Source of the DNA: a virus
Strand: one strand, 5' to 3'
Virus record (IMG/VR): IMGVR_UViG_3300018043_000001
Location: 1 to 50,412 of that record
DNA length: 50,412 nt
The notes under the pieces were generated by a model. That model was not told where the DNA came from. It saw only the letters and a program-made list of their open reading frames with translations, and made no database searches. Of this stretch, positions 10,845 through 44,135 are shown piece by piece (the stretch's first letter is position 1; every line of letters starts with the position of its first letter). Both the position numbers and the translations under genes were made by a program.

Positions 10845-11360
10845 CTAAAGCTCGATCAGGATGAGGTTGCGCTGCCCGGTCGGGCTGACCACCGTGTTCG
10901 CCGCGGCGTTGCACTGCCAGGCCATCTGCAGCTTGGAGCCGGCCTTGCCCGCGGGGAGCGTGACCATCTGCATCACCGAGCCAGCGTAGAGGTCGCTGGA
11001 GCCTCCCGGCGAGCCGCCCGCGACCGCGTACATCTGGAAGCCCGGCTCGACCATCGAACCACCCGCGGGTGTGAACTGCGCCTGCAGGGCCAGGCCGTTC
11101 GCGGGCCACGTCGAGCCGGTGTAGTAGACGTCGATCTCATAGATGATCAGCGCCGAGCCGCCACGGAAGGTCTTCGTGATCAGCGCGTCGGCGATCGGCG
11201 TCATCGACGCGCCCGCGTTGTAGACCGTGCCGGATCCCAGCACACTGGTCACGAGCGGCAGGTGCGCGCGCACGTAGGTCTCCAGCGCGCCGATGCGCTG
11301 ATCGAGCGTCGCCAGCAGCGTTGCGAACGCGAGCCGCGCCGGATCGGAGTTGTTAGGCAC
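10845..11360 (-). CDS. Virion/tail-tip protein, paralogue A
   Basis: The first 25 residues (MPNNSDPARLAFATLLATL, then DQRIGALE) closely match those of the next upstream gene (MPNNPDPARLAFATALAALDQRI...), so the two are tandem paralogues. The rest is a strand-rich domain (IYEIDVYYTGSTWPANGLAL; MVTLPAGKAGSKLQMAWQ) of jelly-roll type composition. Likely role: tail tip or fibre accessory, with the N-terminal helix as the shared docking element. The 8-base overlap with the upstream gene fits coupling. Confidence 0.55.
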   Translation of the reverse strand: MPNNSDPARLAFATLLATLDQRIGALETYVRAHLPLVTSVLGSGTVYNAGASMTPIADALITKTFRGGSALIIYEIDVYYTGSTWPANGLALQAQFTPAGGSMVEPGFQMYAVAGGSPGGSSDLYAGSVMQMVTLPAGKAGSKLQMAWQCNAAANTVVSPTGQRNLILIEL

Positions 11361-11925
11361 TGGTGCTCAGCTCGATCGTCGTAAGCTGGATCTGATCCTG
11401 CCAGCCGAGCACGGAGTTGGGCACGCTCGTGCCGGGTGTGTAGAACAGGGGTGTGATCTGGACATTTTCCTGCGCCGCGACGCCCAGCACCTGCGTCAGG
11501 CACACCGTGTAGATCGCGCCCGAGCCTCCCGCGACGCCTCCGGGCACAGCCTGCATGGCGGCCCCGAGCGCTGCGAAGCTGAGATCGTTGAACGTCTGAT
11601 AGAGCTGCGCCTGCAGTCCCCCCGCCGGCCAGGGATTGAGCGTGCAGTAGACGTTGAACACCAACGACAGCAATGTCTGCCCCGTGCGCAGGTCGACCCC
11701 CTCTGACTCGGAGGGGTTCAGCAGCGTCCATACCGTGCCGGTGAACGGGTCGATGCCGTTGGCGAACTGGTTGAAGCTCATCGAGAACCCGACGCCATAG
11801 TCGATCGCCGGCAGGGCGTTGGGCACCTGCATCCGTGCCAGCACTTCGAGCGAGCTGATGCGCTGGTCGAGCGCCGCCAGCGCTGTTGCGAACGCGAGCC
11901 GCGCGGGATCCGGGTTGTTGGGCAT
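11353..11925 (-). CDS. Virion/tail-tip protein, paralogue B
   Basis: Start ATG 11925 (MPNNPDPARLAFATALAALD) is preferred because it matches the paralogue at 10845-11360; a longer reading in this frame would overlap the upstream hub-like gene. The body has the same overall plan: helical N-terminus, then strand-rich segments such as LLSLVFNVYCTLNPWPAGGL and ENVQITPLFYTPGTSVP. Beyond the N-terminus the two paralogues are well diverged, which suggests different binding surfaces on a common anchor. Located between the hub-like protein and the fibre genes. Confidence 0.55.
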   Translation of the reverse strand: MPNNPDPARLAFATALAALDQRISSLEVLARMQVPNALPAIDYGVGFSMSFNQFANGIDPFTGTVWTLLNPSESEGVDLRTGQTLLSLVFNVYCTLNPWPAGGLQAQLYQTFNDLSFAALGAAMQAVPGGVAGGSGAIYTVCLTQVLGVAAQENVQITPLFYTPGTSVPNSVLGWQDQIQLTTIELSTSA

Positions 11926-11927
11926 GG

Positions 11928-13190
11928 CTAGAGCGGCGGGGCCGGGGGCGGCACGGTCTGCAGCGGCGGGATCCCGAGGTCGAGCGTCACGGTCGCGGCG
12001 CCCGAGTCGGCCACCTGGCAGGTCCAGCCGATGATCCTCCACTCGAAGCTCATGCCGTTCGGGAAGCGCGGGTCCGTGTTCTCTCCGGCGCCGGAAACGG
12101 GGTCGATGGTCATGAGCAGATCGTCGCCGAGCCCCCAGCTCCCAAAGGGCAGCGTCGCGGTCGGCGGGATCACGCCCGCGGCGTTGGGCGGGGTGACCCT
12201 GAACTTGAAGGTGGGGGTGACGACGGGGTAGCAGAAGATGCCCAGATCGCCCTCGGCCACGTTGGTGAGCGTCGCCTGGTCGGTGATCTGGGTCCGGGAG
12301 AAGGTGCGCTCCACGAGCGGGTAGCCGGGGATCGCGGCAGAGATCGCCACCGGCGAGATCCCACCCGTTCCCGAGCCCGTCTCGGCGACGCCCGTGGCCT
12401 GTTGAGAGCCATCCTCCGGGTAGGTGTAGCTGCCGTCCTTGATCGTGAATATCTGCAGGCCCTTCTGAGCGAATGTCTGCCCCTGGCGCGGGAACCAGAG
12501 GTTCATCACCACGCTCGGCACCTTCGTCACGATCGCCGCCGCGCCGACGCCCGTGGTCGTGTAGATGTAGGCCACGTCGAAGGAGTAGTCAAAGCCGGCC
12601 TGGTAGCCCATCTGCGAGAGCAGGCTGACGATGGAGTCGATCGTCTGCAGGCTCGTGCCGGGGTAGCTCGGAGCGACCTGGAAACCGTTGGAGGGCGCCG
12701 AGAGCGAGTAGGGCGAGTTGAGCACGAGCGTCATCCCGGCCATCCCCAGCAGCGGCGTGTTGGTCGCGTTGGTCGCGTTGTTGGAGTTGGCGTCGGAGAT
12801 GATCTGCTGCACGATCAGCATGGGATCCTCGCCGCTGGCGAAGGTCGTCCCGTAGTCCTTGGACTGCACGCGGCGCTGCCAGTAGGAGCCGAACTCGCTG
12901 GCGCCCACCTTCAAGGCTCTCATCGGATCGGCGCTGTCATAGGAGCGCGTCCAGTTGATCCCTCCCCAGACGAGCGTTCCGTTGTAGTCGACGAAGGTGC
13001 AGCTCGACGTCGGCGCGCTCGCCTGGTCCCAGCCCAGGGCCTGCACGCGCGGATCGTTGAGCGAGATCTGCCCCGTCCACGGTCCGGGCTGGTTGAGCGA
13101 CTGGCCGAAGCTCACTCCCTGGTAGGGCAGCGCCGCCGTCACCTTGCCGGTGAGCAGGTTGAGCGCTGGATATGTGAACGGGTTGGGCAT
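11928..13190 (-). CDS. Tail hub / minor tail protein, 420 aa
   Basis: The order tape measure, distal-tail-like protein, then this gene fits a tail-hub (baseplate hub, Tal-like) role, which connects tube and fibre. The sequence has WTGQISLNDPRVQALGWDQ near residue 40, then GTLVWGGINWTRSYDSAD, both typical of hub barrel domains in minor tail proteins, and a later region with EGDLGIFCYPVVTPTFKFRV. It ends in a Pro-rich tail (LQTVPPPAPPL). It has no peptidase motif. Length (420 aa) is short against hubs with enzymatic tails. TGATG overlap with 13190-14134. Confidence 0.6.
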   Translation of the reverse strand: MPNPFTYPALNLLTGKVTAALPYQGVSFGQSLNQPGPWTGQISLNDPRVQALGWDQASAPTSSCTFVDYNGTLVWGGINWTRSYDSADPMRALKVGASEFGSYWQRRVQSKDYGTTFASGEDPMLIVQQIISDANSNNATNATNTPLLGMAGMTLVLNSPYSLSAPSNGFQVAPSYPGTSLQTIDSIVSLLSQMGYQAGFDYSFDVAYIYTTTGVGAAAIVTKVPSVVMNLWFPRQGQTFAQKGLQIFTIKDGSYTYPEDGSQQATGVAETGSGTGGISPVAISAAIPGYPLVERTFSRTQITDQATLTNVAEGDLGIFCYPVVTPTFKFRVTPPNAAGVIPPTATLPFGSWGLGDDLLMTIDPVSGAGENTDPRFPNGMSFEWRIIGWTCQVADSGAATVTLDLGIPPLQTVPPPAPPL

Positions 13191-20453: not shown

Positions 20454-21461
20454 TCAGGCCGTCCAGCTACCCGGCTGGCCGTTGTCGAGCGCCTCGTGAA
20501 TCGCCTTCAAGGCCGCGTTGACGGACTCGTAGGCGGTCGTCACGCTCGCGACGGTGACGTGGTACTGAGTCCTCGGGGTCGGCGTCGGGGTCGGCGTCGG
20601 CGTGGGCGTCGGAGTCGGCGTGGGCGTCGGAGTCGGGGTCGGGGTCGGCGTGGCCGTCATGATCGAGTAGAGGTTCGCGATCTGCGCCGCGGTGAGCGCC
20701 GCGGGGACCACTGCCAGCTTGCCGATCGAGCACTCGCCGTAGCCGACCGTGCCCTCGTTGTCGGAACCGAGCGGCGTGGCCGAGCCCCATCCGCCCGAGC
20801 CGATCGTGAGCGGGCTCGTGGTGTGGGCCGGCTCGATCGCATCCGCGCTGCCGGCGGAGGCCACCATCGGGCACGAGTTGACCAGATTGCCGTTGAGGTA
20901 GAGCTTCACCGAGCCGCTCGCGCCCGCGCCCTCATAGACAACCGCGTAGCCGTACCACGGCCCAACCGTCTTGACCACATGGTCATCGAATCCCGCGCCG
21001 AAGCCGCAGTCCTTCGAGAAGGCATAGCCGCACACGTTGGTCGGCGCATTCCCTGAGTCCGTGCTGTTCGCGTTGTAGTAGCGGAAGGCGTACTCACAGC
21101 CGTCCGTGGCGACCTCGCCAGAGCTGGACTCGATCGCCTTGGAGATGATCTCCGTGCCACCCTCCAGCCCCGGTGCCGGGTGCGGGAAGTTGAGCGTCGC
21201 GAACTGCACCCAGAACAGCAGCGTCAGCGCTCCCTTCGTGGAGATCGACAGCGAGCCGTCGGCGGGGTCGGCGACGATGATGAAGTTGTCGACGCCGTTG
21301 AAGACATGCGCGTTGTCCCCATTGGGCAGGGTCGGCGCGACCGTCACGTCATTGATGTTCTCGATGCTCAGCGTCTCGGTGCCGGCGTTGGCCGTGGGCG
21401 TGGCGCCCGTGAGGTAGAGCGCCGGATCGAGTGCTGCCACTGCGGTGTCGTATGCGGACAC
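20454..21461 (-). CDS. LamG-domain protein with Thr-Pro linker
   Basis: Residues about 15-260 follow the plan of a concanavalin/LamG sandwich: HVFNGVDNFIIVADP, then GALTLLFWVQFATLN, SVKLYLNGNLVNSCP, and the closing strand IGKLAVVPAALTAAQIANLYS. Such domains bind sugars or other surfaces. A linker of about 13 Thr-Pro dipeptides follows, then a 40-residue end (TVASVTTAYESVNAALKAIHE). The gene lies between the tail chaperones and the tape measure, an odd place for an adhesin, so it may decorate the tail tube. GGAGGATCC precedes GTG 21461. Confidence 0.7.
   Translation of the reverse strand: MSAYDTAVAALDPALYLTGATPTANAGTETLSIENINDVTVAPTLPNGDNAHVFNGVDNFIIVADPADGSLSISTKGALTLLFWVQFATLNFPHPAPGLEGGTEIISKAIESSSGEVATDGCEYAFRYYNANSTDSGNAPTNVCGYAFSKDCGFGAGFDDHVVKTVGPWYGYAVVYEGAGASGSVKLYLNGNLVNSCPMVASAGSADAIEPAHTTSPLTIGSGGWGSATPLGSDNEGTVGYGECSIGKLAVVPAALTAAQIANLYSIMTATPTPTPTPTPTPTPTPTPTPTPTPTPRTQYHVTVASVTTAYESVNAALKAIHEALDNGQPGSWTA
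20574..20655 (-). repeat. Thr-Pro coding tandem repeat
   Basis: A simple repeat of ACGCCGACx units (minus) codes about 13 Thr-Pro dipeptides in the LamG protein. Near-identical units such as GGCGTCGGAGTC make it prone to slippage and length change. Confidence 0.8.
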
Positions 21462-28865: not shown

Positions 28866-29039
28866 CTATGCGCGGGGTGGAGCAGCGGAGTGCTCATCGG
28901 CCTCATAAGCCGAAGGTCGCGGGTTCAAATCCCGCCCCCGCCCTACAAACGCTCCCAGCGCGTACGCGAGCAGCAAGGGCCAGAACAGCACGGCCAGCAT
29001 CGCCACGGAGAGCGCGAGATCTCTAATCGAAGAAATCAT
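28866..29039 (-). CDS. Small single-TM protein, overlaps the tRNA antisense
   Basis: ATG 29039 (MISSIRDLALS) leads into a TM helix (AMLAVLFWPLLLAYALGAFV). From about residue 34 the frame continues through the complement of the tRNA (GRGRDLNPRPS...) and stops at 28866, just beyond its 5' end. The start overlaps the stop region of the zinc gene by 17 bases, so the TM part looks real; the last 24 residues may be fortuitous. Function unknown, perhaps part of a small membrane set with 29130-29324. Confidence 0.4.
   Translation of the reverse strand: MISSIRDLALSVAMLAVLFWPLLLAYALGAFVGRGRDLNPRPSAYEADEHSAAPPRA
28871..28943 (+). tRNA. tRNA-fMet (CAT), initiator type
   Basis: The whole cloverleaf is visible: acceptor CGCGGGG with CCCCGCC (position 1-72 is a C-C mismatch, a hallmark of initiators), D stem GAGC/GCTC, anticodon stem TCGGC/GCCGA with loop CTCATAA (anticodon CAT), and T arm GCGGG-TTCAAAT-CCCGC. 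The start CGCGGGGTGGAGCAGC is the signature opening of bacterial tRNA-fMet. The third anticodon-stem pair is C31-G39 rather than the usual G-C. CCA is not encoded. It lies on plus inside the minus-strand late operon. Confidence 0.88.
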
Positions 29040-31620: not shown

Positions 31621-34600
31621 CTATGGTGCGACTTCATAGAGCAGCTCGGCGTCACACGAGCAGCCGGGGTGGTCTCCGGGCAGGAAATAGGCGTTGTCGG
31701 GGAAGCTGTCGGGGTTCTTCAACGCATCGTCGGTGAAGCTGTGGAACTCGACGCCATCGAGCGCCTCGTGGGGCTCGAACGGATGCACGGTCGTGGCCGT
31801 GTGGTGCCAGACGTAACGCTCGACGTTGGCGCCTCCGACGCCCGCGAGCTTCTGGATCGTGGCGCCCGAGCCGATCTGCGGCACGAACCCGGACATGCCG
31901 CCGCCCGTGCTGGCGTCGATCGTCAGAGCGCTCGATGGAGCCCCACCGGCGACCGAGAGCACGGCGCGCAGCGTGCCCACCGGCACGAGCGCGTCAGGAT
32001 CCAGCTCGGCCGGATCCTCGGAGAGCAGCTGCTGCCCGATCGTGTTGAGCGCATGCTTGAACACGTTCCAAGCGGCGTCGAGCTGCACGGCCAGCGCGTT
32101 GCCCGCCTGGTCGACCGCCTGCTGTGGGATGTCCACGAGCTTGCCGATCAGGCGCAGCGACTGTCTCTGTGCGGCGCCGGTCCAGCGCATGAACTGCTCG
32201 CGCAACGCTGCCCAATCGTCGTTCATGAGCCCCGCGGCGGTGAGCCCCGCGGCTGCCATCGCGTCCTTGCCGAGGATGAACGGAACGTGCTCGTTGCGGC
32301 GCTGGTCGATCTTCGTGCGCACCGTCTCATCCTTGCCGAGCTTCGTGCGCATCTTCGCCCCGGCGCGCTCCATCTGGCGCAACATCGCGGCGTTGGCCGC
32401 GGCCTGCAGGCGGATCCGCAGCTGACGATCGACGTCCATCAGCTGGCGGCTGATCGAAGCGCCTCCAGAAGCGGCTGTGAGCGCCGCTGGCGGCCCCGGC
32501 TTGGGCGGCACGGGGTTCTGTGCGGCGGGCGGCGGACCCGGCTGTGCGGGCGCGGGAGCGCTCACAGGCTTGTCAAGCCCGACGCCGGCATCGGCCTGAG
32601 GGCGCGTGGGCTGCGTCGGGATCAGGCCCTCGCCCATGTCCACGCCGCCGGGCTTGATCCCCGGCACCATCCCCGACACCGTGATCGGCGGCACGACGAG
32701 GGTGGGATCGAAGCGCTGCGCGTACTCCATCAGCAGGTTGAGCGGCAGCGCCCTGATGTCCATGACGCGGCGCATCTCCAGCTCTGAGACGGTCGGCGCA
32801 TCATCTTCGGCAAAGCCCGCCGCCTTGCGGTATGCCTCCGCCGAGATGATCATGTCCTCGTAGGCCTTCTGCGAGTCGGCGGTGCGGTCCGGGTGCGTCA
32901 CCAGCTCAACCGGGTCATACCAGAGCACGCAGCGACGCACCCACTCATCAGGCACGCCGTAGGACTGCAGGTAGGGCCGCAGGAACGCGCCGGTGAGAGC
33001 GTCCACCGCTTCGATCACGGCCGGCTCGACGTGATGACGGAAAACGTCGTCACTCACCTGCCAGGCCGACCAATGGTTGAGGTCGGCGATACCCATGATC
33101 ACTTCCTTGGGCAGATCGAAGCCGGTGGCAATCACGCCGATCAGCTCTTCGCGCGTCTTGGAGGCCTCCGAGTCGAAGCTGGAGGCGAAGTCGATGTGCC
33201 TGATCTTGTCCAGGAACTCGCCGGGGCCGCGAACCACCAGCGGCACGACGGACTCGGCCGTGCCCTCGTTGGTGATCGGCGCCATCATCGCCTTGGTCAA
33301 ATCAGCGATGAAGGTGTCAGCGTCGGGGTCCTGGTCGTCGTTGGGCTCGTTGGCGAAGGTGATCTCGTTGGGGAAGCAGAGCAGGCCGCGCCCTGAGAGG
33401 CGTGAGCGGCCCGTGGCGCGGATGATGCGCCGCAGGATGCAGATGGCCTCGCACTCGTCGAGCATCGCCTTCACGGGGCTGTCAGCGAGCAGGTGATAGC
33501 GAGGATCCGGCGTCCAGATGCGGCTGATCACGCAGGTGTCGGGATCGAGGTCGACCCAGGGAATTACCCCGTTGGGGTTATCTGGCATCTCGCGCAGACG
33601 CCAGCTCGTGTCGGTGACCACCAGCTCGTCGACCGAACGGATGCCCCATTCCTCTTCGCCGGTCTGCTCGTTCTGGCGCCCGAGCAACCAGCCTTCGCCC
33701 GCCACCGACAGGTTGGTGGAGAGATCGCCCATCAGGTGAGCCATCGCCATGCGGCCGTTGCCAAGCTCCTGCAGGCCCAGCTCAGCGAGCCCGGAGAGAT
33801 CCATCGGGACGCCCTCGGCGTGCGCCAGAGGGACCGGCTCGTCGCTCTCAGCGCCCGGCAGGTAGACCGCCGGGAAGAGCTTCATCCGCGCGCAGCAGTG
33901 CGCCAGGAACTTCACGGCGTAACGCAGCTCGGGGACCGATGACCTGTAGGTGTTGCCGGTGAAGTAGACCGTGCCCCGGCGACGCGCCAACCATGTGCGG
34001 TTGGCAACCATCGGACACCAAACCTGGCCGCTGTAGGTCACGCGCTTGACGACGGTGGCGTTCTCCCACTCGCGGCTGGCTGCGTCCAGCGGGTTGACGG
34101 TTGCCTTGTCGCGGATATGCAGTCGCCAGCAGCCTTCATCCTTCAAGTAGATGTGTGGAGTGCGACCAGTCAGGATGCTGGCGAGCGCCAGCGGCTCCAA
34201 GCGGGCTCGAACGGACTGCGTGACGCACACGTTGGCGCCCGTGCGCGCGTCGCGATGGCCGTCGGCATCGACAGACGTCTGAATGAAAAGCTCCAGCTGC
34301 GCCAGCGTCAGTGAGCGCACGAACCCGGTAGCCACCACCTTGTCGGGTGCGGGCGCGATAGCACCCAGCCGCTGTCCGGCATACTTATCGAGCGCGAAGA
34401 CAGCCATATCCTCGTCGGTCCCCTCGCGCCAGGCAGGGTATTGCAAGCCGCGCGTGGTCGGTACCGCAGGCCCGAAGACGGCCGTCAGAGCCGCGCGGAT
34501 ACGCGCTACGTTCTCCGGATAGACGCGCCACGATTGCGTGATGACGACAGCGCCAGACGCCTTGATGGTCCCCTCTGTCCAGAACCACGCAACCAGCTCC

Positions 34601-35214
34601 ACGAACGCATCTGTGTAGACAGCCACGTCTGGCAAGTCGGCACATGGCGCCGCCGTGATGAGGGAGTGCCGAGTGGTCAGCTCATCCGAGCGCGTCAGAG
34701 CGCACACCAAAGTCGCAGCAGGACGCGGACCATGCGCAGGAGCGGAAGGCGGCGGCAAGCCCAGCCGCTTCGCGTGACGCCGCTCGCGCCGAATGTCGAC
34801 ATCCGCCTGCGTGAATGCTTCCCGTCGTGCAACCGTGGGCCACTTGTGGTCGAGGGTCGACAGCGACGAGTGCAAGCGGCCCTGCATCGACAACATAGGG
34901 CGCTCGGAGACATCGAAGACCTTGACGGCCTTGACGGGCTGCCACTCGGACTCTCCTGTCTCCTGGTTGAGCGTCAGCGCCAAGTCGCCCGCCACAACCT
35001 CACCGTACGTCAGCCAACCGCGCGTCGTAAGAATCTCCGTCTCGGGGTCGACGCACCAGGCATCAGACTGCCAACCGGCGCGCAGCGCCTTCTGGCGCTT
35101 GGCCTCGTTGCGGTCCGAGATGTCGATGCGCGTCGCCGCGGCCGTCAGCACACGCAGGCGCGTGGCTTTCGACTTGTTCTTGAACCAGCCGGTTTGAGCT
35201 CTGGTGACGGCCAT
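31621..35214 (-). CDS. Portal-MuF fusion interrupted by an intein
   Basis: ATG 35214 overlaps the DUF1360 stop. Portal residues 1-53 end at ...RAGWQSDAW, the intein follows (368 residues), and the portal resumes with TYRSSVPELRYAVKFLAHCC. Extein total is about 829 residues. Portal features: DELVVTDTSWRLREMP, WVDLDPDTCVISRIW, DLPKEVIMGIADLNHWSAW. The C-terminal part ends PGDHPGCSCDAELLYE, the His-Pro-Gly-Cys-x-Cys signature of the MuF (head morphogenesis) domain, so portal and MuF are one chain. The portal forms the ring through which DNA enters the head. Confidence 0.82.
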   Translation of the reverse strand: MAVTRAQTGWFKNKSKATRLRVLTAAATRIDISDRNEAKRQKALRAGWQSDAWCVDPETEILTTRGWLTYGEVVAGDLALTLNQETGESEWQPVKAVKVFDVSERPMLSMQGRLHSSLSTLDHKWPTVARREAFTQADVDIRRERRHAKRLGLPPPSAPAHGPRPAATLVCALTRSDELTTRHSLITAAPCADLPDVAVYTDAFVELVAWFWTEGTIKASGAVVITQSWRVYPENVARIRAALTAVFGPAVPTTRGLQYPAWREGTDEDMAVFALDKYAGQRLGAIAPAPDKVVATGFVRSLTLAQLELFIQTSVDADGHRDARTGANVCVTQSVRARLEPLALASILTGRTPHIYLKDEGCWRLHIRDKATVNPLDAASREWENATVVKRVTYSGQVWCPMVANRTWLARRRGTVYFTGNTYRSSVPELRYAVKFLAHCCARMKLFPAVYLPGAESDEPVPLAHAEGVPMDLSGLAELGLQELGNGRMAMAHLMGDLSTNLSVAGEGWLLGRQNEQTGEEEWGIRSVDELVVTDTSWRLREMPDNPNGVIPWVDLDPDTCVISRIWTPDPRYHLLADSPVKAMLDECEAICILRRIIRATGRSRLSGRGLLCFPNEITFANEPNDDQDPDADTFIADLTKAMMAPITNEGTAESVVPLVVRGPGEFLDKIRHIDFASSFDSEASKTREELIGVIATGFDLPKEVIMGIADLNHWSAWQVSDDVFRHHVEPAVIEAVDALTGAFLRPYLQSYGVPDEWVRRCVLWYDPVELVTHPDRTADSQKAYEDMIISAEAYRKAAGFAEDDAPTVSELEMRRVMDIRALPLNLLMEYAQRFDPTLVVPPITVSGMVPGIKPGGVDMGEGLIPTQPTRPQADAGVGLDKPVSAPAPAQPGPPPAAQNPVPPKPGPPAALTAASGGASISRQLMDVDRQLRIRLQAAANAAMLRQMERAGAKMRTKLGKDETVRTKIDQRRNEHVPFILGKDAMAAAGLTAAGLMNDDWAALREQFMRWTGAAQRQSLRLIGKLVDIPQQAVDQAGNALAVQLDAAWNVFKHALNTIGQQLLSEDPAELDPDALVPVGTLRAVLSVAGGAPSSALTIDASTGGGMSGFVPQIGSGATIQKLAGVGGANVERYVWHHTATTVHPFEPHEALDGVEFHSFTDDALKNPDSFPDNAYFLPGDHPGCSCDAELLYEVAP
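33952..35055 (-). mobile_element. Intein with LAGLIDADG homing endonuclease in the portal
   Basis: The intein starts at Cys (35055-35053) in WCVDPETEILTTRGW (block A) and ends VYFTGN before Thr (N codon 33954-33952). The middle shows two dodecapeptide-type motifs, ELVAWFWTEG and LELFIQTSVDADGHR, of a LAGLIDADG endonuclease. The penultimate residue is Gly instead of the common His, and block F has VWCP. It should splice itself out to restore the portal. Confidence 0.85.
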
Positions 35215-35540
35215 CAGACACGCTCCGAGATGATGCCGGCGATGGCGCTGAACGCCAGCACGGCAGTGATGACGAGACAGGCGGATGCGGCGAGCGATCC
35301 GAGCAAGACGATCGCTACGGCGATCCAGGGTGAGACGCACCACGGGCAGGTGATGAACTCGGCGAGCTTCGGGCGCGCGACCACAGCGGCGCGCATCCCC
35401 GTCATGTCGCGACGGTCGATGTAGCGGCTGCCCGCCAGCTTCAAGCGCACGGGCGCCGTGATCGTGTCGCTGCCCACGAGTCTCGTGAGCCGGTAGGTCG
35501 CCAGGGCGTCAAGCGCCAGCAGGGTTGGGTCGCTAGTCAT
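35214..35540 (-). CDS. DUF1360-type membrane protein
   Basis: The protein follows the DUF1360 plan: LLALDALATYRLTRLVGSDTI, an Arg-rich mid-segment, then CPWCVSPWIAVAIVLLGSLA with the CPWCxSxW motif and a second TM (LVITAVLAFSAIAGI). DUF1360 proteins are frequent in actinophage genomes near structural genes, function unknown; the Cys pair may be redox-active or metal-binding. 108 residues, start ATG 35540 overlapping the previous stop. Confidence 0.68.
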   Translation of the reverse strand: MTSDPTLLALDALATYRLTRLVGSDTITAPVRLKLAGSRYIDRRDMTGMRAAVVARPKLAEFITCPWCVSPWIAVAIVLLGSLAASACLVITAVLAFSAIAGIISERV

Positions 35541-35877
35541 CTGGCTCCAGGATCGAGAAGTCGACGCTCGGCGCCCAAGCGTGCTGAATGATCACGCCGA
35601 ACGCCTTCTCGGGCGCTCCGGCGATCTGCTTGGTGACCCAGTAGTAGGTGCCCTGCGGCACCGTCGCAGCGTCGTCGTTGGCTGCCAGCTGCAGCGAGCC
35701 GCCCGAGCTGGAGACGAGCAGACCGGCGTCATTGATAATGCCGCGCACAACCTTGGGCTCGATGCTGAGCGCGCCGTTGACGAGCGTCTCGAACAGCTCG
35801 AAGTTGATCCAGCCGTGAGCCGCGTAGCCGTCAGGGCTCTTGAACGTGCCGGTGATCGTGACGTAGGTGAGACTCAT
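35533..35877 (-). CDS. Beta-rich virion-type protein, 114 aa
   Basis: Start ATG 35877 (MSLTYVTITGTFKSPDG), inside the previous stop (ATGA). The sequence alternates strands, HGWINFELFETLVN, then SLQLAANDDAATVPQG, YYWVTKQIAGAPEK, which fits a small Ig-like or bracelet domain as in fibre-base or tail-end proteins that begin ...ITGTF...PDG. It belongs to the surface-protein block and has no membrane segment. Exact role not recognised. Confidence 0.5.
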   Translation of the reverse strand: MSLTYVTITGTFKSPDGYAAHGWINFELFETLVNGALSIEPKVVRGIINDAGLLVSSSGGSLQLAANDDAATVPQGTYYWVTKQIAGAPEKAFGVIIQHAWAPSVDFSILEPDD

Positions 35878-36191
35878 CGTCCTGTCCAGGTGAAGGGCGC
35901 TCCGAGCGCTTTGAGAGGCGAACCGCAGCCACAGCCGCGACCGCGGTTGATCCACGCCGTGCGCCCATCGGCGAGCTTTGCTTCAAGGTGTCCGTGAAGC
36001 GATGAGCGGCTCGCAGGGACGCTGGAGGGCGTCGCCAGGGCGAGGTTGAGGGCAATCTCGATGACGCCTCCAGACGCGGCCCTGTAGGCCAGCAGGCGCT
36101 CATCGGTGACGAACACCCGCAGGCCCTGCGAGATCTCCCCGTCGATGGTCACTTCCGCGGGGAAGATGTCCCGCGTGAGGCGCTCAGCCAA
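35874..36191 (-). CDS. Hypothetical structural-block protein, 105 aa
   Basis: TTG at 36191 overlaps the upstream stop. The sequence has a strand pattern (EVTIDGEISQGLRVFVTDER) and a C-terminal WINRGRGCGCGSPLKALG containing CGCG, which may bind a metal. It is soluble and not recognised. The tight overlaps with neighbours on both sides indicate one transcript of the surface block. Confidence 0.48.
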   Translation of the reverse strand: MAERLTRDIFPAEVTIDGEISQGLRVFVTDERLLAYRAASGGVIEIALNLALATPSSVPASRSSLHGHLEAKLADGRTAWINRGRGCGCGSPLKALGAPFTWTGR

Positions 36192-36558
36192 CTACCTGAA
36201 CCGCCGAGGCGATGGCAGCGGCGCCACCGACCGTGACCTTGAAGAACCACCCGGCGGGCAGCTTGGTCTGCAGCGAACGGCTGAGCGTCGCGTCGCTGGT
36301 CGGGACGATCGTCGCGCCCTGTACGCCGGTGGACGCAGCGCACGCACTGGTCTGGCCGATGGCGATGGCGACGGTGCCGGCGGTGCCGCCGGTGACCGCA
36401 ACGTAGACGTTCGACGGGAAGCCCGTCTGGTCCTGTTGCGCGGTGCCCGAGACGACGGTGAGCGCCGCGGCGGATGCGTTCAGCTGCGATTCGAGCAGCT
36501 CGACGAGCGCGTCGGACTTGTCGAGGTCGGGATTGAGGATGCCTGCGGTGACGGTCAT
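36184..36558 (-). CDS. Small beta-rich protein, 124 aa
   Basis: After a helical opening (DKSDALVELLESQLNASA) the chain alternates Gly/Thr-rich strands (VYVAVTGGTAGTVAIAIG; WFFKVTVGGAAAIASAV). The composition suits a decoration or fibre-accessory domain. Preceded by AGGAG at ATG 36558. No family recognised. Confidence 0.48.
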   Translation of the reverse strand: MTVTAGILNPDLDKSDALVELLESQLNASAAALTVVSGTAQQDQTGFPSNVYVAVTGGTAGTVAIAIGQTSACAASTGVQGATIVPTSDATLSRSLQTKLPAGWFFKVTVGGAAAIASAVQVVG

Positions 36559-36565
36559 GTTTCTC

Positions 36566-37678
36566 CTATGCGGTGATTGGTCCTACGGTGTTGCTGGTCG
36601 CAGACGCCGAGTCCATGTCGATGAACTGTTCGACGACGCACTGCAGGTAGAGCCCGATGTCGGTGCTCTGAGGTTGGTAGGTGTTCGCGCCGGCCCCGGC
36701 GATGTCCGTCCAGGTGACGCCATCCGGCGAGTTTTGCCAGGTGAAGACGTATGACTCCGCGAAGCCCATGTGCGCCCACATGCCGTCCGTGACGTTGCAG
36801 GGCTCAGCGTCAGCGACGCTCAGCGAAGGCGCGGTGAGCACGGGCGCGATGAGGTTGACCGGCAGCGTGGGAACAGGGCCGACGCTGTTGCTCAGCGCGC
36901 TCGTGGACTGCCCCAACACCGTCTGCGTGACCACACAGCGCAGATAGAGCGCCCCGTCGCTCTCCTGTACCAGGTAGCCGCTGACGGTCGCCGAGGGGAT
37001 GTCCGTCCACGTCCCCTCGTCCGGGGAGTTCTGCCACTGGAAGCTGTAGGAGACCGGCGCCGGGGTCCACTGCCAGTCACCGACCGTCACCGCGGCGAGC
37101 GAGCCGCTCAGCATGGCGGCGACCGGCGGCGAGACGTTGACCGGCTCGGTGCTGAGCACCGTCTCCAGCGTGCCCTGCGTGACCGTGAGCATCGTGCCGT
37201 CGCTGGTCGTGATCTGAGCGCAGTGAATGCCATCCTCGGCAGCCAGCAGCAGGTAGGGCGCGCCAGGGCCGGGCTGGCCCAGCGGGTATTGGAAGCTGTA
37301 CTGGCAGGCGATCCCTCCAGGCGCGGCGGACGAGCCCATGCCGTTGCACGGGCCGACGATGCGCACGCGCAGCCCGTTGGGCAACAGCGGCCCCCAGGTG
37401 GTGCTGGGCTGGCTCGTGATCGTGCCGGTGCTCGTGTCCGTGCCGGCGGGCACCGTGATCTCTTCGAGCGTTGACCAGGAGCCGTCTGGCATCAGCTGCT
37501 CGACCACCAGATAGGTGTCGGCGCTCGGCCCCTGACCGGGGTTCAGCGAGATCGCCATAGACGAGCTGAGCAGCAGTGTGTAGAGCTGCAGGCCCTCGAT
37601 GATCAGGATGTCGTCGTCGACCAGCGACCCCCATTGAGTGTTGACGGAGCCGTCGATGTACGGGACGGAAAAGCTCAT
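36566..37678 (-). CDS. Protein with two Ig-like domains, 370 aa
   Basis: Residues about 190-275 and 285-370 are two related Ig-like domains, each with a YSFQWQNSPDEGTWTDI or YVFTWQNSPDGVTWTDI core and a closing LRCVV or LQCVV strand, the pattern of bacterial Ig-like modules on phage surface proteins. The first 180 residues are strand-rich (LYTLLLSSSMAISLN; DTYLVVEQLMPDGSW) with a base-plate-like composition. Likely a virion adhesin or decoration protein that weakly binds cell-surface sugars. ATGA overlap with 37675-38025. Confidence 0.6.
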   Translation of the reverse strand: MSFSVPYIDGSVNTQWGSLVDDDILIIEGLQLYTLLLSSSMAISLNPGQGPSADTYLVVEQLMPDGSWSTLEEITVPAGTDTSTGTITSQPSTTWGPLLPNGLRVRIVGPCNGMGSSAAPGGIACQYSFQYPLGQPGPGAPYLLLAAEDGIHCAQITTSDGTMLTVTQGTLETVLSTEPVNVSPPVAAMLSGSLAAVTVGDWQWTPAPVSYSFQWQNSPDEGTWTDIPSATVSGYLVQESDGALYLRCVVTQTVLGQSTSALSNSVGPVPTLPVNLIAPVLTAPSLSVADAEPCNVTDGMWAHMGFAESYVFTWQNSPDGVTWTDIAGAGANTYQPQSTDIGLYLQCVVEQFIDMDSASATSNTVGPITA

Positions 37679-38025
37679 GCCTCTGGGAAGCTCCTATAGG
37701 CGCGGAAGGAATAATCGGGAGTGGCGGCCAGGGGGTTGCCCACGGAGTCCGTACCGCGGCCCCTGTAGCGCCACAGGCCCGCCTGGTTGATCTGCACGCT
37801 ACAGGTGAACAGCCCCGAGGCGACGCTCGTGACGTTCGGCGTGCTGAGCAGCTGCGCGATCGTCGAGGGCGGGTAGAGGTCCAGCCACACGCCGGCTGGC
37901 GCGACGCCGATACCGGCGGGCAGGCCGTTGCCCGCCTCGAAGGCTGCCTGCTCGGCGCTCGTGAGCGGACGGGTGACCAGGCAGAACGTGATCACCACGA
38001 GTGATCCAACCGGGTATGTGTTCAC
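37675..38025 (-). CDS. Small Ig-like virion protein, 116 aa
   Basis: Start MNTYPVGSLVVITFCLV, then VWLDLYPPSTIAQLL and closing LFTCSVQINQAGLWRYRGRG. The opening NTYPVGSLV...T, a Pro-rich middle and the closing GLWRYR resemble the single Ig-like domain protein common in the head and tail clusters of actinophages. Soluble, 116 residues. ATGA and GTGA type overlaps tie it to 36566 and 38022 genes. Confidence 0.55.
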   Translation of the reverse strand: MNTYPVGSLVVITFCLVTRPLTSAEQAAFEAGNGLPAGIGVAPAGVWLDLYPPSTIAQLLSTPNVTSVASGLFTCSVQINQAGLWRYRGRGTDSVGNPLAATPDYSFRAYRSFPEA

Positions 38026-38207
38026 GCCTCCACCTCCATGCCGTAGCCCACGTAGCGGGCCTTCTCGATGCCATAGCCGGTGGTTTGCGCAACGTCGCTG
38101 CCGTAGCCCACGAGCACCGGCGCCTCGAACGCGCAGCCGCTGGACGGCAGGTCCATATCGGAGCCCAGGATCACCGTGGGACCGGCGCGCAGCAGTCCCA
38201 GCCTCAT
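38022..38207 (-). CDS. Hypothetical 61-aa protein
   Basis: The short sequence begins MRLGLLRAGPTVILGSDMD and carries repeats of Gly-Tyr-Gly (LVGYGSDVA, TGYGIEKA, VGYGMEVEA), which form three imperfect short repeats. It overlaps both neighbours. No family recognised; may be a small tail or adhesin linker. Confidence 0.45.
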   Translation of the reverse strand: MRLGLLRAGPTVILGSDMDLPSSGCAFEAPVLVGYGSDVAQTTGYGIEKARYVGYGMEVEA

Positions 38208-40102
38208 CGCGGCCAGAGCTGCCCGTCAGCCGGGATCGGCGTCGGTGTGCCCGCGGTCATGATCGGCACCTTGACCGTGCGCGTCGCGATCGGCTCCTGC
38301 CAGGCTGGAAGTGGCGCGGTGTACGCCGTGCCGTTCGGCCCCTGGATCGCCGGCGTGGTGACCGACACGCTGCCGTAGACGTTCGTGGCGGTGACCACGC
38401 ACTGCACATAGCCTGGGTAGTCCTCATCGAGCACGGTGAAGGTCGACTCGGAACCCGCGCCATCGACCCACGTCAGGCCGTCTGCGCTCGTCTGCCAGTC
38501 GTAGGTGAAGGTTGGGTCATTGACCCAGGTGCCGACCTCACAGGTGAGCACAAGGCTGGGGACGAGCGTGCCGGTGATGCTCGGCGCCACGTCGCACACG
38601 GGCACCGGCAGGCCGTAGTGCAGGATCAGCTGCGGCGTGGTGGCGCCGCCGATGCCCGCGTAGTGCTTCATCACGATACCGTCGGGGTTGCCCAGGCACC
38701 AGATGCCGTAGTTGGGCGTCCCGTCCAGCCACGCCTGCACGAGCGCCGTCACAGGGACGTAACAGTTACCGGGATAGGCGGGCGCCTCATAGTCGACGCT
38801 CGGGCCGACCTGCGAGGGCATCGTGTTCCAGGTCACCGTGTTGGCGGCCCACTCGGCCCCGGCCAGCGTGAACATCACAGGCTCAGCCGCACCGTACCAT
38901 GAAGGGTCACAGGCGTAGAGCACCAGCGTCGCGACGAGCAGGCTCAAACCGATCGGCGCGGGTGGAAGCGTGAAGCCGAGCAGCGTACGGAACACGCAGC
39001 CCGTGTCGCCCATCCCGACGCCCCAGTTGTCATAGTTGGCCCACGTCTGACAGCCGTAGCACATCGCGCAGCTGGTCGCGTTCAACATCTGCGAGACGGT
39101 GGTGACGACCGTGACCGAAGCTGTGAAGGGCGTACCGGTGGCAACGTCCGTGACCGTCAGCTCGTCGGTCCCCACAGGCGCGCCCACGGTGAGCGTGAAC
39201 GCCGCCACGCCTCCGTCCCACGGCGCGAACGTGTACTCGCCAGATGAGAAGATCCCGAGGTTGGCACTGTCGCTTGCCCACACGTCAGCGGCGTTGCTCG
39301 ACAGTGAGATCGTGCCGTCATAGCTCGTGCTGGCCGCCATGACCAACACCGCGATCTCGCTACCGGGAGCAACCTCCGTGCCGTCGGCCGACGTCGCGAT
39401 CGTGAACGTGGGCGTGAACGCGGATGCCGCGGTATACAGCGCCTCGATCTGCGCTCCCGTGAGCACGATGCCGTTGAAGAGCGCAGCCTCCTGCACGCGG
39501 CCGGTCCAACACACGATGGAGCTGTTGCTTGCAGGCGCCACATCCCAGCGAGCCTCCGCGCCATGAGCCGAGTAGCTCCACGGCGTGCCCGTGCCGAACT
39601 GGCCGGCCACCATCGCACCATCGACGTAGAGGGTGGCGTAGCCGACTGCCCAGACCGCCGCGTAGAAGTGCGTGGAGCCCGCGGTGATCAGCCCCGCGGC
39701 GCTGGTGAGCGTAACCGTCTCGCTGCCGTTGTAGAACTGGAAGGTGACCGAGCCATCGGCGTTGACGTACAGGTCGCTGGTGGTGTTCACGCTCGGCCCG
39801 TTGCCCACCGTTGTCACGGTGAACAACTGCTGCGAGTTATCGAGCGCGTCGAGCGTCGCCCATGCCATAGCGGTGCCGGTGGTGTCGTCGCTATAGCCGG
39901 GCGACTCCACGCAGCCGCCGGTGAAGTGCGTGCTGGACGCCTCATCGCCGGAGAGCAGGCCCATCTGCGCGAGCGTGTAGGAGCCCGTGTAAACCCCATT
40001 GGAGCCATTCCCCGACGAATCCACCGCAACGCTGCCGCTGGTGTCGTCCAGGCGGTAGTAGAAAGTCGGGGAGAGCGCTTCTACGTCAGCGGCGTAGCTC
40101 AC
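38204..40102 (-). CDS. Multi-domain surface protein: LamG, Ig-like, DNRLRE-like
   Basis: Domains in order: LamG-type sandwich (about 1-230: FYYRLDDTSGSVAVDSSGNG, HFYAAVWAVGYATLYVDGAM, RVQEAALFNGIVLTGAQIEALY), an Ig-like domain (240-335: AVLVMAASTSYDGTISLSS), a DNRLRE-like sandwich (about 340-510: FRTLLGFTLPP, AEWAANTVTWNTMPS, VTALVQAWLDGTPNYGIWCL) and a last Ig-like domain (515-600: LTCEVGTWVNDPTFTYDWQT). All are binding modules of secreted bacterial proteins. Cys-rich parts may form disulfides. It is probably a surface or tail adhesin. GTG at 40102. Confidence 0.68.
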   Translation of the reverse strand: MSYAADVEALSPTFYYRLDDTSGSVAVDSSGNGSNGVYTGSYTLAQMGLLSGDEASSTHFTGGCVESPGYSDDTTGTAMAWATLDALDNSQQLFTVTTVGNGPSVNTTSDLYVNADGSVTFQFYNGSETVTLTSAAGLITAGSTHFYAAVWAVGYATLYVDGAMVAGQFGTGTPWSYSAHGAEARWDVAPASNSSIVCWTGRVQEAALFNGIVLTGAQIEALYTAASAFTPTFTIATSADGTEVAPGSEIAVLVMAASTSYDGTISLSSNAADVWASDSANLGIFSSGEYTFAPWDGGVAAFTLTVGAPVGTDELTVTDVATGTPFTASVTVVTTVSQMLNATSCAMCYGCQTWANYDNWGVGMGDTGCVFRTLLGFTLPPAPIGLSLLVATLVLYACDPSWYGAAEPVMFTLAGAEWAANTVTWNTMPSQVGPSVDYEAPAYPGNCYVPVTALVQAWLDGTPNYGIWCLGNPDGIVMKHYAGIGGATTPQLILHYGLPVPVCDVAPSITGTLVPSLVLTCEVGTWVNDPTFTYDWQTSADGLTWVDGAGSESTFTVLDEDYPGYVQCVVTATNVYGSVSVTTPAIQGPNGTAYTAPLPAWQEPIATRTVKVPIMTAGTPTPIPADGQLWPR

Positions 40103-40103
40103 G

Positions 40104-41012
40104 TCACTCCCAGCGGATCATCGCGGACATGTTGTTCGCCCAGGTACAGGCCACGTACTGGTTGCCGTCCCAGGAGCTGCCGGTCGGCAGGTAGGTGTGT
40201 GGCGCGTCGTAGTGCTGGATCACGACTGGCACACCGGCCGCGAAGTCGGTGTAGAAGTACGTCAAGATGTCCATGCAGGGGTTGTGCAGCTGGGTGTCGT
40301 AGGGGTAGTGCGCGAACACCATGACGTCATTGCCGTCGTCGTCCATCCCCGCGCCCGATGACCAAGAGCCTGGCACCTTGCAGACGGGATAGGCGAACGC
40401 ACCATTGATCGCAGCCGTCTCGTTGGTAACAAACGGCTGCCCAACCGGTGGCAGCATTACCAAGATGCGCTGCGTTGACATCCCGTCGCCCGCACTGCCA
40501 TATCCCCAGAAGTACACATACTCCGCGGTGTCGTTGCCGCTGGCGTCCTTGGAGCGCTCAATCACGAAGATGGAGCGATCATTACCCCATATGTCCGCGT
40601 TGACGTTATTGTGGAACGCCAGCCTGGAACCATCGCCGGAGCAGGCCTGGTAACAGCCCACGGGGGCACCGTCGTAGATCGGGGAGGATTGGTAGGGAAC
40701 CGAGACGTTACCCGTCAACCCACCAGCGCCGTTGCTGCCGTTGCCGAGCAGGATTGTGAAGTACACACGCCAATTCTCGTCAGTCTCGTAGCCGAACTTC
40801 AAGTAGACGGGCAGCTCGTCCTGCAGGCTGTCCGCGAAGGCGAACATCTCGTAGCCGATGAACTGACCGCCGAAATCGATGCTGGCCGTGCTCCAATTGA
40901 TCTGCCCGGTGTCCTCTGTCTGCACGAGCCCACAGGCCTGCACCTGCTCGGAGACAGCCTGCAGATGTTGGAACCCGCCCACAGCCGAGCGCGCACGTAG
41001 GTCAACGCTCAT
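40104..41012 (-). CDS. Surface-block protein, 302 aa
   Basis: Strand-rich protein with many aromatic residues (YLKFGYETDENWRVYFTIL; RIL VMLPPVGQPF; HYDAPHTYLPTGSSW) and the ending NNMSAMIRWE, a composition of phage virion or appendage proteins. No signal peptide or TM. It overlaps 41012-41476 (TGATG) and precedes the LamG protein. Not recognised further. Confidence 0.5.
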   Translation of the reverse strand: MSVDLRARSAVGGFQHLQAVSEQVQACGLVQTEDTGQINWSTASIDFGGQFIGYEMFAFADSLQDELPVYLKFGYETDENWRVYFTILLGNGSNGAGGLTGNVSVPYQSSPIYDGAPVGCYQACSGDGSRLAFHNNVNADIWGNDRSIFVIERSKDASGNDTAEYVYFWGYGSAGDGMSTQRILVMLPPVGQPFVTNETAAINGAFAYPVCKVPGSWSSGAGMDDDGNDVMVFAHYPYDTQLHNPCMDILTYFYTDFAAGVPVVIQHYDAPHTYLPTGSSWDGNQYVACTWANNMSAMIRWE

Positions 41013-41476
41013 CAGATCCCCGCTTCCAGTGGGATGTAGACGAGCGTCACCGTGACGTCGCCCTCGGTGCCGCTGGCGGGCATCGAGACGGTCGCGGGGT
41101 AGGAGCCTGGCACCGGATCCTCCAGGCCGCCGTCGTAGGGGTCATACAGCGCCATCGCGGGAGCGAACTCCCAGAGCGTGTCATCGCCCGCGGTCAGGAT
41201 GTCCAGCAGCACGCCGGCGTTCCCGGACGGCAACGTGCCCCAGGGCCGCGACAGGTCGGCGGTCTGCTGATCGGCCGTCGTGTAGAGACGCAGGCGCACG
41301 GGCACGTTGGTCGTGAGCGTGAGCGCGAGCACACTCAGGTTCTCCAGATAGAAGATGCCCTGCCAGGCGTCGCCGCCGGGCGTGAGCGTGCCGATGTCGA
41401 ATGTCCGGGATGTACGCGCGAGTGCGCTCACTTGCACCTCTTCCTCTGTTGGGCGCCTGCGGGTGATGATCGGCAT
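41012..41476 (-). CDS. Small virion protein, 154 aa
   Basis: The N-terminus (MPIITRRRPTEEEVQVSAL) is helical and charged, followed by a beta domain (LENLSVLALTLTTNVPVRLRLY; TVSMPASGTEGDVTVTLVYIP). This plan, a docking element followed by a sandwich, is common in appendage proteins. It lies between the two largest genes of the block. Function unknown. Confidence 0.5.
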   Translation of the reverse strand: MPIITRRRPTEEEVQVSALARTSRTFDIGTLTPGGDAWQGIFYLENLSVLALTLTTNVPVRLRLYTTADQQTADLSRPWGTLPSGNAGVLLDILTAGDDTLWEFAPAMALYDPYDGGLEDPVPGSYPATVSMPASGTEGDVTVTLVYIPLEAGI

Positions 41477-42642
41477 TAGGAACTCGGTGTCGGCAGAGCC
41501 GCGACCAGGCCATAGGTGATGTTCGCCAAGGTCGCGTCCTGCGTGGTCGGAGCGATCACCGTCAGGCAGTCGCCCCAGACCAGCGTCAGCGTGCTGGAGA
41601 AGGTCACAGTACCCGTGTAGGCGCCCGGCGCGAACACGATGGTGCCGATCTGGACGTCCGTCTCCGTGCCGTGCACGCGATGGTAGATCTCGAAGGTGGC
41701 TGTCGCGGTTGCCGGCGTGTAACAGACGGCGTTGCTGATGTCGAACTCACCGGCGAGCAGTCGGCTGCCATCGGCCACAGCCGTGACAACCTGCCGCAGC
41801 CCGCAGGCGCTCGCGGCCGGCTTGCCCTCGTGCCCGCCGTCGAACTCGCAGACCTGCAGGGCGCTGATGGCACCGCTGACGCTTGCCCCGATCGAGCCGG
41901 CAACGCTGTCCACGTAATCGAGCGTCGCCAGCTGAGAGCGTTCGGTCGAGCCCTCCGGCACCTGATGGCCGCTCCAAGCGGGCGGCGTGCTGTTGGAGGA
42001 CGGCGCTCCGGTGAAGGCGGGACCGGCGAGCGGCGCCAGAGCCTCCAGGTCAGTGAGCAGCGTCCCTGTGCCGGTGTGCGACGGCAGGTCTCTCTCGATC
42101 AGGTCCACGGTCGCGCCCGAGTGGCCGTTGACCGTCTGCACGCCCGTGGACGGCACGCTCAGCGCGGTCCAGTCCGCGAGCGTGTCGCCCGAGCCCGAGT
42201 ACATGTAGCTGTAGGGCTGCGCGCTACCCGGATCGGCGTTGTTGGCCGCGATGATGTCGGTGCGGATCGCGATGTCCCCGGCGCTGAAGGTGTATGTCGT
42301 GATCGTCGAAGGGAGCGCGAGCATCGCCGCCTGCGAGCTGACCAGCTCGATGTGCTCGTAGACGGACGGGATGTTGACCAGCGGGACGTGCCCTGTGCTA
42401 TCCAGGCCGCAGATGCCGCTGGGCTGGCCGATGGTCAGGATCAACGTCGCAAGGGCTCCAGCGAGCCCTGCGAGCGTCTCAGGGCTGGTTTCGTCGCCCA
42501 CCACGGTCGAGAACAGCGCGCCCAGCGCGGTGATGACCCAGCTGGCCATCGCCGTGTCCGCGCCCTGCATCGTGGCCTCGTCCAGCTCGGTCACGAGATC
42601 CACCCAGTCATACGGCGCGCGCGAAGGGACGATGAAGCTCAT
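41476..42642 (-). CDS. Fibre-like protein next to terminase, 388 aa
   Basis: The N-terminal 100 residues (VVGDETSPETLAGLAGALATLI, PSGICGLDSTGHVPLVNIP) resemble the shaft or attachment part of tail fibres, with a STGHVP collar-like repeat, and the rest has strand-rich segments (YTPATATATFEIYHRVHG, GAYTGTVTFSSTLTLV). It overlaps the terminase stop by four bases (42639-42642), which means the surface block is transcribed with terminase. Probably a virion fibre or decoration protein. Confidence 0.55.
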   Translation of the reverse strand: MSFIVPSRAPYDWVDLVTELDEATMQGADTAMASWVITALGALFSTVVGDETSPETLAGLAGALATLILTIGQPSGICGLDSTGHVPLVNIPSVYEHIELVSSQAAMLALPSTITTYTFSAGDIAIRTDIIAANNADPGSAQPYSYMYSGSGDTLADWTALSVPSTGVQTVNGHSGATVDLIERDLPSHTGTGTLLTDLEALAPLAGPAFTGAPSSNSTPPAWSGHQVPEGSTERSQLATLDYVDSVAGSIGASVSGAISALQVCEFDGGHEGKPAASACGLRQVVTAVADGSRLLAGEFDISNAVCYTPATATATFEIYHRVHGTETDVQIGTIVFAPGAYTGTVTFSSTLTLVWGDCLTVIAPTTQDATLANITYGLVAALPTPSS

Positions 42643-44135
42643 CGCTGGCCCATCCTCGCTTCCAGGCGGCGCTGCAACAGCGTCTGGCCTGTCTCGACGC
42701 CCTGACGCACGGACTGGCGGTCACGCGGCACCTGGCCCTGAGGGATGCTCAGGCGCATCGAGGCGGGCGCTGCCAGGGACATGAGCACGGCGTCACCGCG
42801 GTCGGGGCTGCGGCCGATGCGCTTCTTGGTGTCTTCCTTCTTCTCCACAACTCTCCTGAGCTTCAAGTCGTAGGTGTAGGTCGGGGCGCAGAGATCCGCG
42901 GCCAACTGCTCGTCGCCGTCGAGGTCGAGGTCTTCGAGCTGCTCGGCGACCTCGAACCAGATCTCGCTGCGGCGGTTGGGGAACATCAGCGGGCGATGGG
43001 CCTTGGCGGCGCCGTTGAAGGGCTCCACGGGCACGCCCTGGGCTCTGAGGGCATCCGTGACGCCACCGCCCACACCCACGTCATCGACCACAACGCGGGG
43101 CTTGGAGCCGATCGCGTCGTAGTGGTGCTTGACCCTGCCCGCGGTGTGGATCGTGTCGTTGCCGACGTAGTGCTCCAGGATGCGAACGCGCTGGCCGTGG
43201 CGATGCACGATCACCGTCTCGTCGTCGCCGAAGCGTCCGACGTCGCAGCTGATCACGCTCTTGCCCTCGGGCTCGATCTCGCGAGCCTGCGCGGCTTCGA
43301 TCGCGGCGAGGCCGATCACGTTGTCCTCGCCGGCGTCGGAGAAGTCGCCTTTGACGCGCACCTGATAGATCGTGGACTTCTCGCCCCACTGCTTGCGCTT
43401 CTGCTCGGCCCAGCCGGCGTGAGGCATCGCGCGCGCCACCTCGGCCGGGACCTCTTCGCCGGTGTAGCTCGGGCTGTCGTAGACGCTGATGTGGATTTGG
43501 TTCCAGAGCGCTCGCTCGCTCGCGAAGGCGCGGTGGAACTGGCCGCCCACCCGCGTCGGGTTGCCGATCAGCAGCACCTTGGCGTGCTCGCTGGTCAAAA
43601 AGCCCTCGGCGGCGGTGAAGATGTCCTCCGCGACGCCGGACGCCTCATCGACCACGAGCAGCATGTGGCCCGTCGATGAGTGGTGGCCCTGCAGACGCTC
43701 GCTCTCGTTGGTGCTGATGCCGAGCGCGTACCACTCTTCGGTGATCGTCAGCTCGGCGTGCAGCGGCGTCGGCAGATCGAGCGCCTGCTGGCGGGCGTGA
43801 GCGCGGCGCACCTGAGCTCTGATTCCAGCCCAGAGGATCTTGACCACCTGCGTGTAGGTCGGGGCGGTCGTGATGACCCTGCTGTCGGTGTGCGTGGCGA
43901 GGAACCAGAGGACCGCCACGCCGGCCGCCGCGCTCTTGCCGATGCCGTGGCAGGAGCGCACCGCTGTGCGGTCGTTGTCGCGAACGCTTTCGAGGATCGC
44001 GCGCTGCTTGCTCCAGGGGAAGAACTGCAGCACGTCCAGCGCGTACCCAACCGGATCGGCAACGTAGGGATGCTTGGGCGGGTCGAATATGTCCGCGGCG
44101 ATCAGCCACGGGTTGGGCCGCGCTACCGCGCTCAC
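42639..44135 (-). CDS. terL: Terminase large subunit
   Basis: ATPase half: Walker A-like SCHGIGKS (residues 61-68), Walker B MLLVVDEAS (about 158-166) with acidic Asp/Glu pair, coupling GNPTR around 191. Nuclease half: Asp298 in SCDVGRFGDDE, the DDVGVGGGV motif at 351 and SPDRGDA at 443-449, the three acidic clusters expected for a two-metal RNase-H-type nuclease. At 498 residues it is full length. It cuts and pumps DNA into the head. ATG 44135 lies just after the small subunit stop (4 bases). Confidence 0.9.
   Translation of the reverse strand: MSAVARPNPWLIAADIFDPPKHPYVADPVGYALDVLQFFPWSKQRAILESVRDNDRTAVRSCHGIGKSAAAGVAVLWFLATHTDSRVITTAPTYTQVVKILWAGIRAQVRRAHARQQALDLPTPLHAELTITEEWYALGISTNESERLQGHHSSTGHMLLVVDEASGVAEDIFTAAEGFLTSEHAKVLLIGNPTRVGGQFHRAFASERALWNQIHISVYDSPSYTGEEVPAEVARAMPHAGWAEQKRKQWGEKSTIYQVRVKGDFSDAGEDNVIGLAAIEAAQAREIEPEGKSVISCDVGRFGDDETVIVHRHGQRVRILEHYVGNDTIHTAGRVKHHYDAIGSKPRVVVDDVGVGGGVTDALRAQGVPVEPFNGAAKAHRPLMFPNRRSEIWFEVAEQLEDLDLDGDEQLAADLCAPTYTYDLKLRRVVEKKEDTKKRIGRSPDRGDAVLMSLAAPASMRLSIPQGQVPRDRQSVRQGVETGQTLLQRRLEARMGQR

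Follow-up and report, generated by a model that had tools for sequence, protein, structure and literature searches.

The stretch of viral DNA analysed here (50,412 nucleotides from an uncultivated long-tailed phage; hereafter the window) carries 11 open reading frames between its large terminase and portal genes, all of them on the minus strand, as are the two border genes. The upstream border, TerL (498 aa; 42639-44135), was identified by tblastn to annotated terminases and matches the vir525 TerL at 37% and that of the related contig L004 at 64%. The downstream border is a portal protein of phrog_776 (31621-35214), and the major capsid protein (MCP) belongs to phrog_777. The coordinates given for an eleven-gene block in an earlier note on this DNA (35214-42642) match exactly, and the whole TerL-portal interval measures 7.4 kb. 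Spacing within the 11-gene run ranges from -8 to +7 nt, stop/start overlaps of 1-8 nt being commonest, and GC3 stays between 0.78 and 0.90; the overall GC of one gene, C302, is 0.61 vs about 0.67 for its adjoining genes. The terL-to-portal genes form a single tight operon-like unit composed of two layers: a core of four genes, H124, I105, J114 and K108, and a window-specific cargo of seven genes, A388 to G370 (42642-36566, 6.1 kb), placed between TerL and H124. The earlier note had presented all 7.4 kb as unusual, a description that fits the cargo and fails for the H-I-J-K genes, which are a conserved core in relatives. The portal gene itself contains an insertion of 368 residues with intein-like ends (35055-33952, minus strand), which begins CVDPETEIL and finishes YFTGN before a Thr; it is present in the related contig L013 and missing from the L004 portal, and a Pfam search of it returned no match.

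The cargo genes encode proteins with similarity to phage fibres and to surface-binding domains. A388 (41476-42642) is a fibre-like protein with the motifs 'LDSTGHVPLVNIPS' and 'VQTVNGHSGATVDL'. Its PHROG matches are weak (phrog_22757, 5.8e-9; phrog_2824, virion structural, 1.5e-5; phrog_7049, tail fibre, 0.002); it also aligns with the tail fibre of cyanophage S-B68 (35% over 100 aa), and its AlphaFold model, built from one sequence, was unusable (pLDDT 33). B154 (41012-41476) is a small beta protein that matches phrog_15343 (1.6e-5) and, weakly, cyanophage long-tail-fibre proteins. D632 (38204-40102) combines a LamG domain (residues 73-219), a CBM96/DNRLRE-type domain (370-493) and an Ig-like domain (500-585). 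The first two clear the Pfam cut-offs (Laminin_G_3, E 6e-9; CBM96, E 6e-9), whereas the third matches a protein of the Mesorhizobium phage Cp1R7A-A1 at 42%. G370 (36566-37678) may likewise contain Ig-like domains, based on weak similarity: its residues 96-368 match Cp1R7A-A1_202 at 28%, and it resembles the C-terminal domain of D632 (36% over 81 aa). Pfam searches of both proteins for Ig domains gave sub-threshold matches alone, with no Ig model above its cut-off. Among the domain calls of the earlier note, LamG and DNRLRE-like are thus confirmed in D632 by Pfam, while Ig-like depends on mutual similarity and sub-threshold matches. In Cp1R7A-A1, the gene for the protein matched by the Ig domains comes after those for minor tail, holin and endolysin proteins. 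The two small proteins between D632 and G370, E61 (38022-38207) and F116 (37675-38025), overlap each neighbour by 4 nt; F116 has no family match in Pfam or PHROGs.

C302 (40104-41012) is predicted to adopt the fold of a tail-fibre arm. An AF2 model built from 38 sequences (pLDDT 78, pTM 0.81) aligned structurally with chain K of PDB entry 8rk3, from phage JBD30 (VIA-align; Z 16.5, 267/302 aligned, rmsd 4.2, 8% identity); the runner-up was unrelated, with a Z of 3.9. Chain K ends at residue 318, and we assign it to JBD30 gp47 (318 aa) since its length and sequence fit that protein but neither gp48 (307 aa) nor gp54 (382 aa). The match emerged only through VIA re-alignment: Foldseek of C302 against the PDB gave none at E<=0.001, and searches of the PDB with the C302 profile and the G370 and D632 sequences returned nothing useful. 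Comparison of C302 with gp47 and gp48 profiles (hhalign) yielded probabilities of 0.1-2% and detected no sequence homology, so that C302 is modelled to fold like gp47, a common fold that does not establish family membership. The JBD30 tail fibres, which embrace the type IV pilus, are formed by gp47 and gp48 (PMC11445458; PDB 8RK3). The two are paralogues encoded in tandem, following the tape-measure gene, whereas C302 is single in the window and lies between terL and portal; elsewhere, C302 relatives do come as tandem paralogues, like gp47 and gp48.

The wider C302 family comprises 37 IMG/VR loci of mixed GC, frequently with 2-4 tandem copies, and in the scanned loci most of its neighbours fall into tail-fibre, collagen minor-tail or tail PHROGs. 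Homologues of B154 lie directly upstream of C302 homologues in seven loci (L096, L097, L099, L109, L110, L114 and L122), three of the seven (L097-L099) being near-identical or overlapping contigs. In phage Tunturi_5, gp30-33 are 28-33% identical to C302, and these four paralogues come after two annotated tail-fibre genes. The gp28-gp33 fibre cluster thereby resembles the window in setting C302 homologues among fibre genes, and differs in its four tandem copies, its 309-kb phage with an Acidobacteriota host, and its position, which is off the terL-portal site in the stretch examined. Matches in BFVD that share the C302 fold include a 'virion structural protein' of Xanthomonas phage FoX4, whose structural cassette was confirmed, at cassette level, by virion mass spectrometry (PMC9746216). 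The B154-C302 pair is a widespread unannotated phage module, with a fold that links it to the tail-fibre arm binding the type IV pilus in JBD30.

To place the window among its relatives, we compared the TerL-portal stretch of ~25 distinct related IMG/VR contigs, gathered by MCP, portal and core genes. Wherever the genes were detected, the order H-I-J-K before portal is kept. H124 (36184-36558), for which the sequence suggests an N-terminal helix and a beta-rich domain, has homologues immediately following TerL in about a dozen relatives; in some contigs a family of 209-259-aa proteins stands in its position. I105 (35874-36191) carries a GCGC cysteine motif in the alignment and is collinear in nearly all relatives. 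J114 (35533-35877) is a beta domain that also occurs in L088, as the N-terminal part of a 972-aa protein. K108 (35214-35540), immediately before portal, is a DUF1360 membrane protein (PF07098, 4.5e-15; hydropathy peak 2.67) and probably acts in the membrane, perhaps in lysis or entry. In L150, these four genes alone fill an interval of 1.6 kb. The TerL family itself varies among relatives (window type vs phrog_38 type; e.g. L012, L013, L028, L081) over the same H/I/J/K-portal genes downstream, which suggests that the packaging gene has been replaced; in L013, the other-family TerL (337-2460) is interrupted by a GIY-YIG-like ORF of 100 aa.

The interval varies greatly in content. Its length among relatives is 1.2-18.5 kb, approximate values because they were measured between tblastn matches, with the relatives' genes called by a simple codon-model caller. 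We found no homologues of A388-G370 among the ~25 compared relatives, and TerL-H spacing in the other H-bearing relatives is 0.7 kb or less. Cargo instead lies between I and J in L030 (4.4 kb), L079 (5.8 kb) and L085 (4.8 kb), the L079 cargo including a glycosyltransferase as well as a protein whose beginning is LamG-like, or between J and K in L081 and L147 (~2 kb). In G028, ~18.5 kb separates TerL (78553-76895) from portal (about 58375) and encodes 758-972-aa proteins, one with a J-like N-terminal domain, plus a GH25-type endolysin. In L080, where TerL was not found, a glucosaminidase and two large proteins (1325 and 1005 aa) are encoded next to I and K. A scan of 51 interval proteins, five from the window itself, matched tail fibre, collagen minor tail, minor tail, He_PIG Ig, CBM5/12 and LamG families in PHROGs or Pfam, as well as glycosyltransferase, methyltransferase, glucosaminidase and one integrase; this is a plain tally with no background comparison, and many of the 51 have no match.

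Published phages also carry genes here. As many as 40 ORFs separate terL from portal in phages of Microbacterium, Arthrobacter and Gordonia (PMC7302621, PMC5513430, PMC4991695), and Clown, ClearAsMud, TurkishDelight and Saguaro have genes there too, the gene right before portal being annotated in several of them as a small membrane protein. The contention that long-tailed phages normally have nothing at this site is therefore wrong for this lineage, given its relatives and these published actinobacteriophages (PMC7302621, PMC5513430). The window meets the actinophage pattern as a long-tailed phage with actinophage-type portal and MCP and extra genes between terL and portal. It shares the extra genes, and with several of them the small membrane protein before portal, with the insertions of Quhwah, Hendrix, Laroye, Clown and TurkishDelight; their inserts consist largely of small genes, unknown or for DNA modification, whereas those in the window encode large adhesion- and fibre-type proteins. 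The portal relatives, from Mycobacterium, Gordonia and Microbacterium phages, would point to an actinobacterial host. No known phage matched the region by megablast, and scans of bacterial genomes with MCP and C302 alignments found no relatives, so no host can be assigned from prophages.

Taken together, A388-G370 probably represent a cassette acquired by horizontal transfer and inserted between TerL and H-I-J-K, its late virion genes being of the fibre or receptor-binding type and serving adsorption to the host. The idea that the block encodes adhesion-type virion proteins is supported by the fibre PHROG matches, the LamG and CBM96 domains and the predicted C302 fold. Expression of the cargo would be late and driven from the terL-portal operon. 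Together with B154, C302 may form an arm or plate resembling JBD30 gp47/gp48, A388 would be the fibre, and D632 and G370, through their LamG, CBM96 and Ig domains, could bind surface glycans or lengthen the appendage. We read the cargo as resembling components of tail fibres more closely than decorations of the head, because the C302 fold and the neighbourhoods of C302, Ig-domain and, weakly, B154 homologues are tail-fibre-like; the assembly would most likely be located on the tail tip. A separate tail-tip set (Dit, minor tail and a collar-domain protein) stands at its usual place in this phage, so the cassette would be additional and is not needed as the sole receptor-binding set. Counting against this reading are that second set, the location of the genes within the genome's packaging/head region, the unusable A388 model, the sub-threshold Ig-like calls and the undetected C302-gp47 sequence homology.

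Head appendages or a capsid fringe, as the earlier note had proposed, are an unlikely location, in which LamG/CBM/Ig proteins on the capsid would aid surface sticking in the manner of Hoc, pb10 or gp8.5. The block does adjoin head genes, decoration proteins of Ig type have been described (PMC7602432), and L041 has a gene resembling H124 between those for protease and MCP (E 3.6e-6 against a profile from which L041 was left out). However, portal and protease separate the block from MCP, and H-like domains are also found in fibre/lysis regions of other lineages, so H does not settle the head-vs-tail question. We found no positive evidence for a head placement in the cargo: the sole solved structural relative of C302 is a tail-fibre arm protein, and the B154, C302 and Ig-domain relatives in other phages lie within or near tail-fibre genes. 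T4 Hoc, T5 pb10 and N4 gp17 (PMC7602432) have Ig-like domains proposed for surface binding, of the kind tentatively called in G370 and D632; the cargo differs in having partner proteins that resemble tail-fibre parts. The 'head protein' label of phrog_240 was also considered as head evidence and rejected, its Indlulamithi relative being located after minor tail genes and before the endolysin.

It is more doubtful still that the region is a mosaic insertion of random hitch-hikers at a permissive site, without common function, comparable to the unknown ORFs and methylases of actinophages. Unrelated terL-portal insertions are indeed common (PMC7302621, PMC5513430, PMC4991695), but much of the annotatable cargo in the clade is of surface or fibre type, and the B-C pair is conserved across unrelated phages. 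Least probable are non-virion proteins, that is, enzymes or surface proteins made in the infected cell or released from it, which would modify the host surface, bring about lysogenic conversion or act as decoys. Secreted bacterial proteins often contain LamG, CBM96 and Ig modules, and the relatives' intervals include glycosyltransferase, methyltransferase and lysin genes, yet the cargo has fibre-type PHROG matches, is packed inside the TerL-portal operon and has no MCP/C302 relatives in the bacterial genomes scanned, and a simple scan shows neither signal peptide nor LPxTG-type anchor. The same hydropathy scan, covering A388 to J114, found no signal-peptide-like N-terminus, on which a secreted host-surface protein was rejected, and no strong transmembrane segment.

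On this reading, members of the clade would swap attachment genes in and out between TerL and portal, an unusual location for such genes. A broader proposal, which we make tentatively and at somewhat less than even confidence, is that the interval, with H-I-J-K as its frame, is dedicated to the exchange of genes for adsorption: fibres, lectin/Ig adhesins and in some cases glycosyltransferase or lysins. It would be physically apart from the tail-tip RBP locus and amount to a second swappable attachment system of the virion, possibly at the head or neck. If the cargo is indeed virion adsorption machinery, the search for receptor-binding genes must extend to the region between terL and portal, because annotation pipelines or host-range predictors that examine the genes following the tape measure would miss them there.

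Three further features lie elsewhere in the window. A tRNA-Met gene (CAT; 28870-28944, plus strand) is located between the protease and MCP genes, on the strand opposite the virion genes. A 335-aa protein (20454-21461, minus strand), encoded between the tape measure and the connector genes, has a LamG-like match slightly under the Pfam cut-off. Finally, p229 and p171 (10845-12042, minus strand) are neighbouring paralogues with 37% identity over 147 aa.
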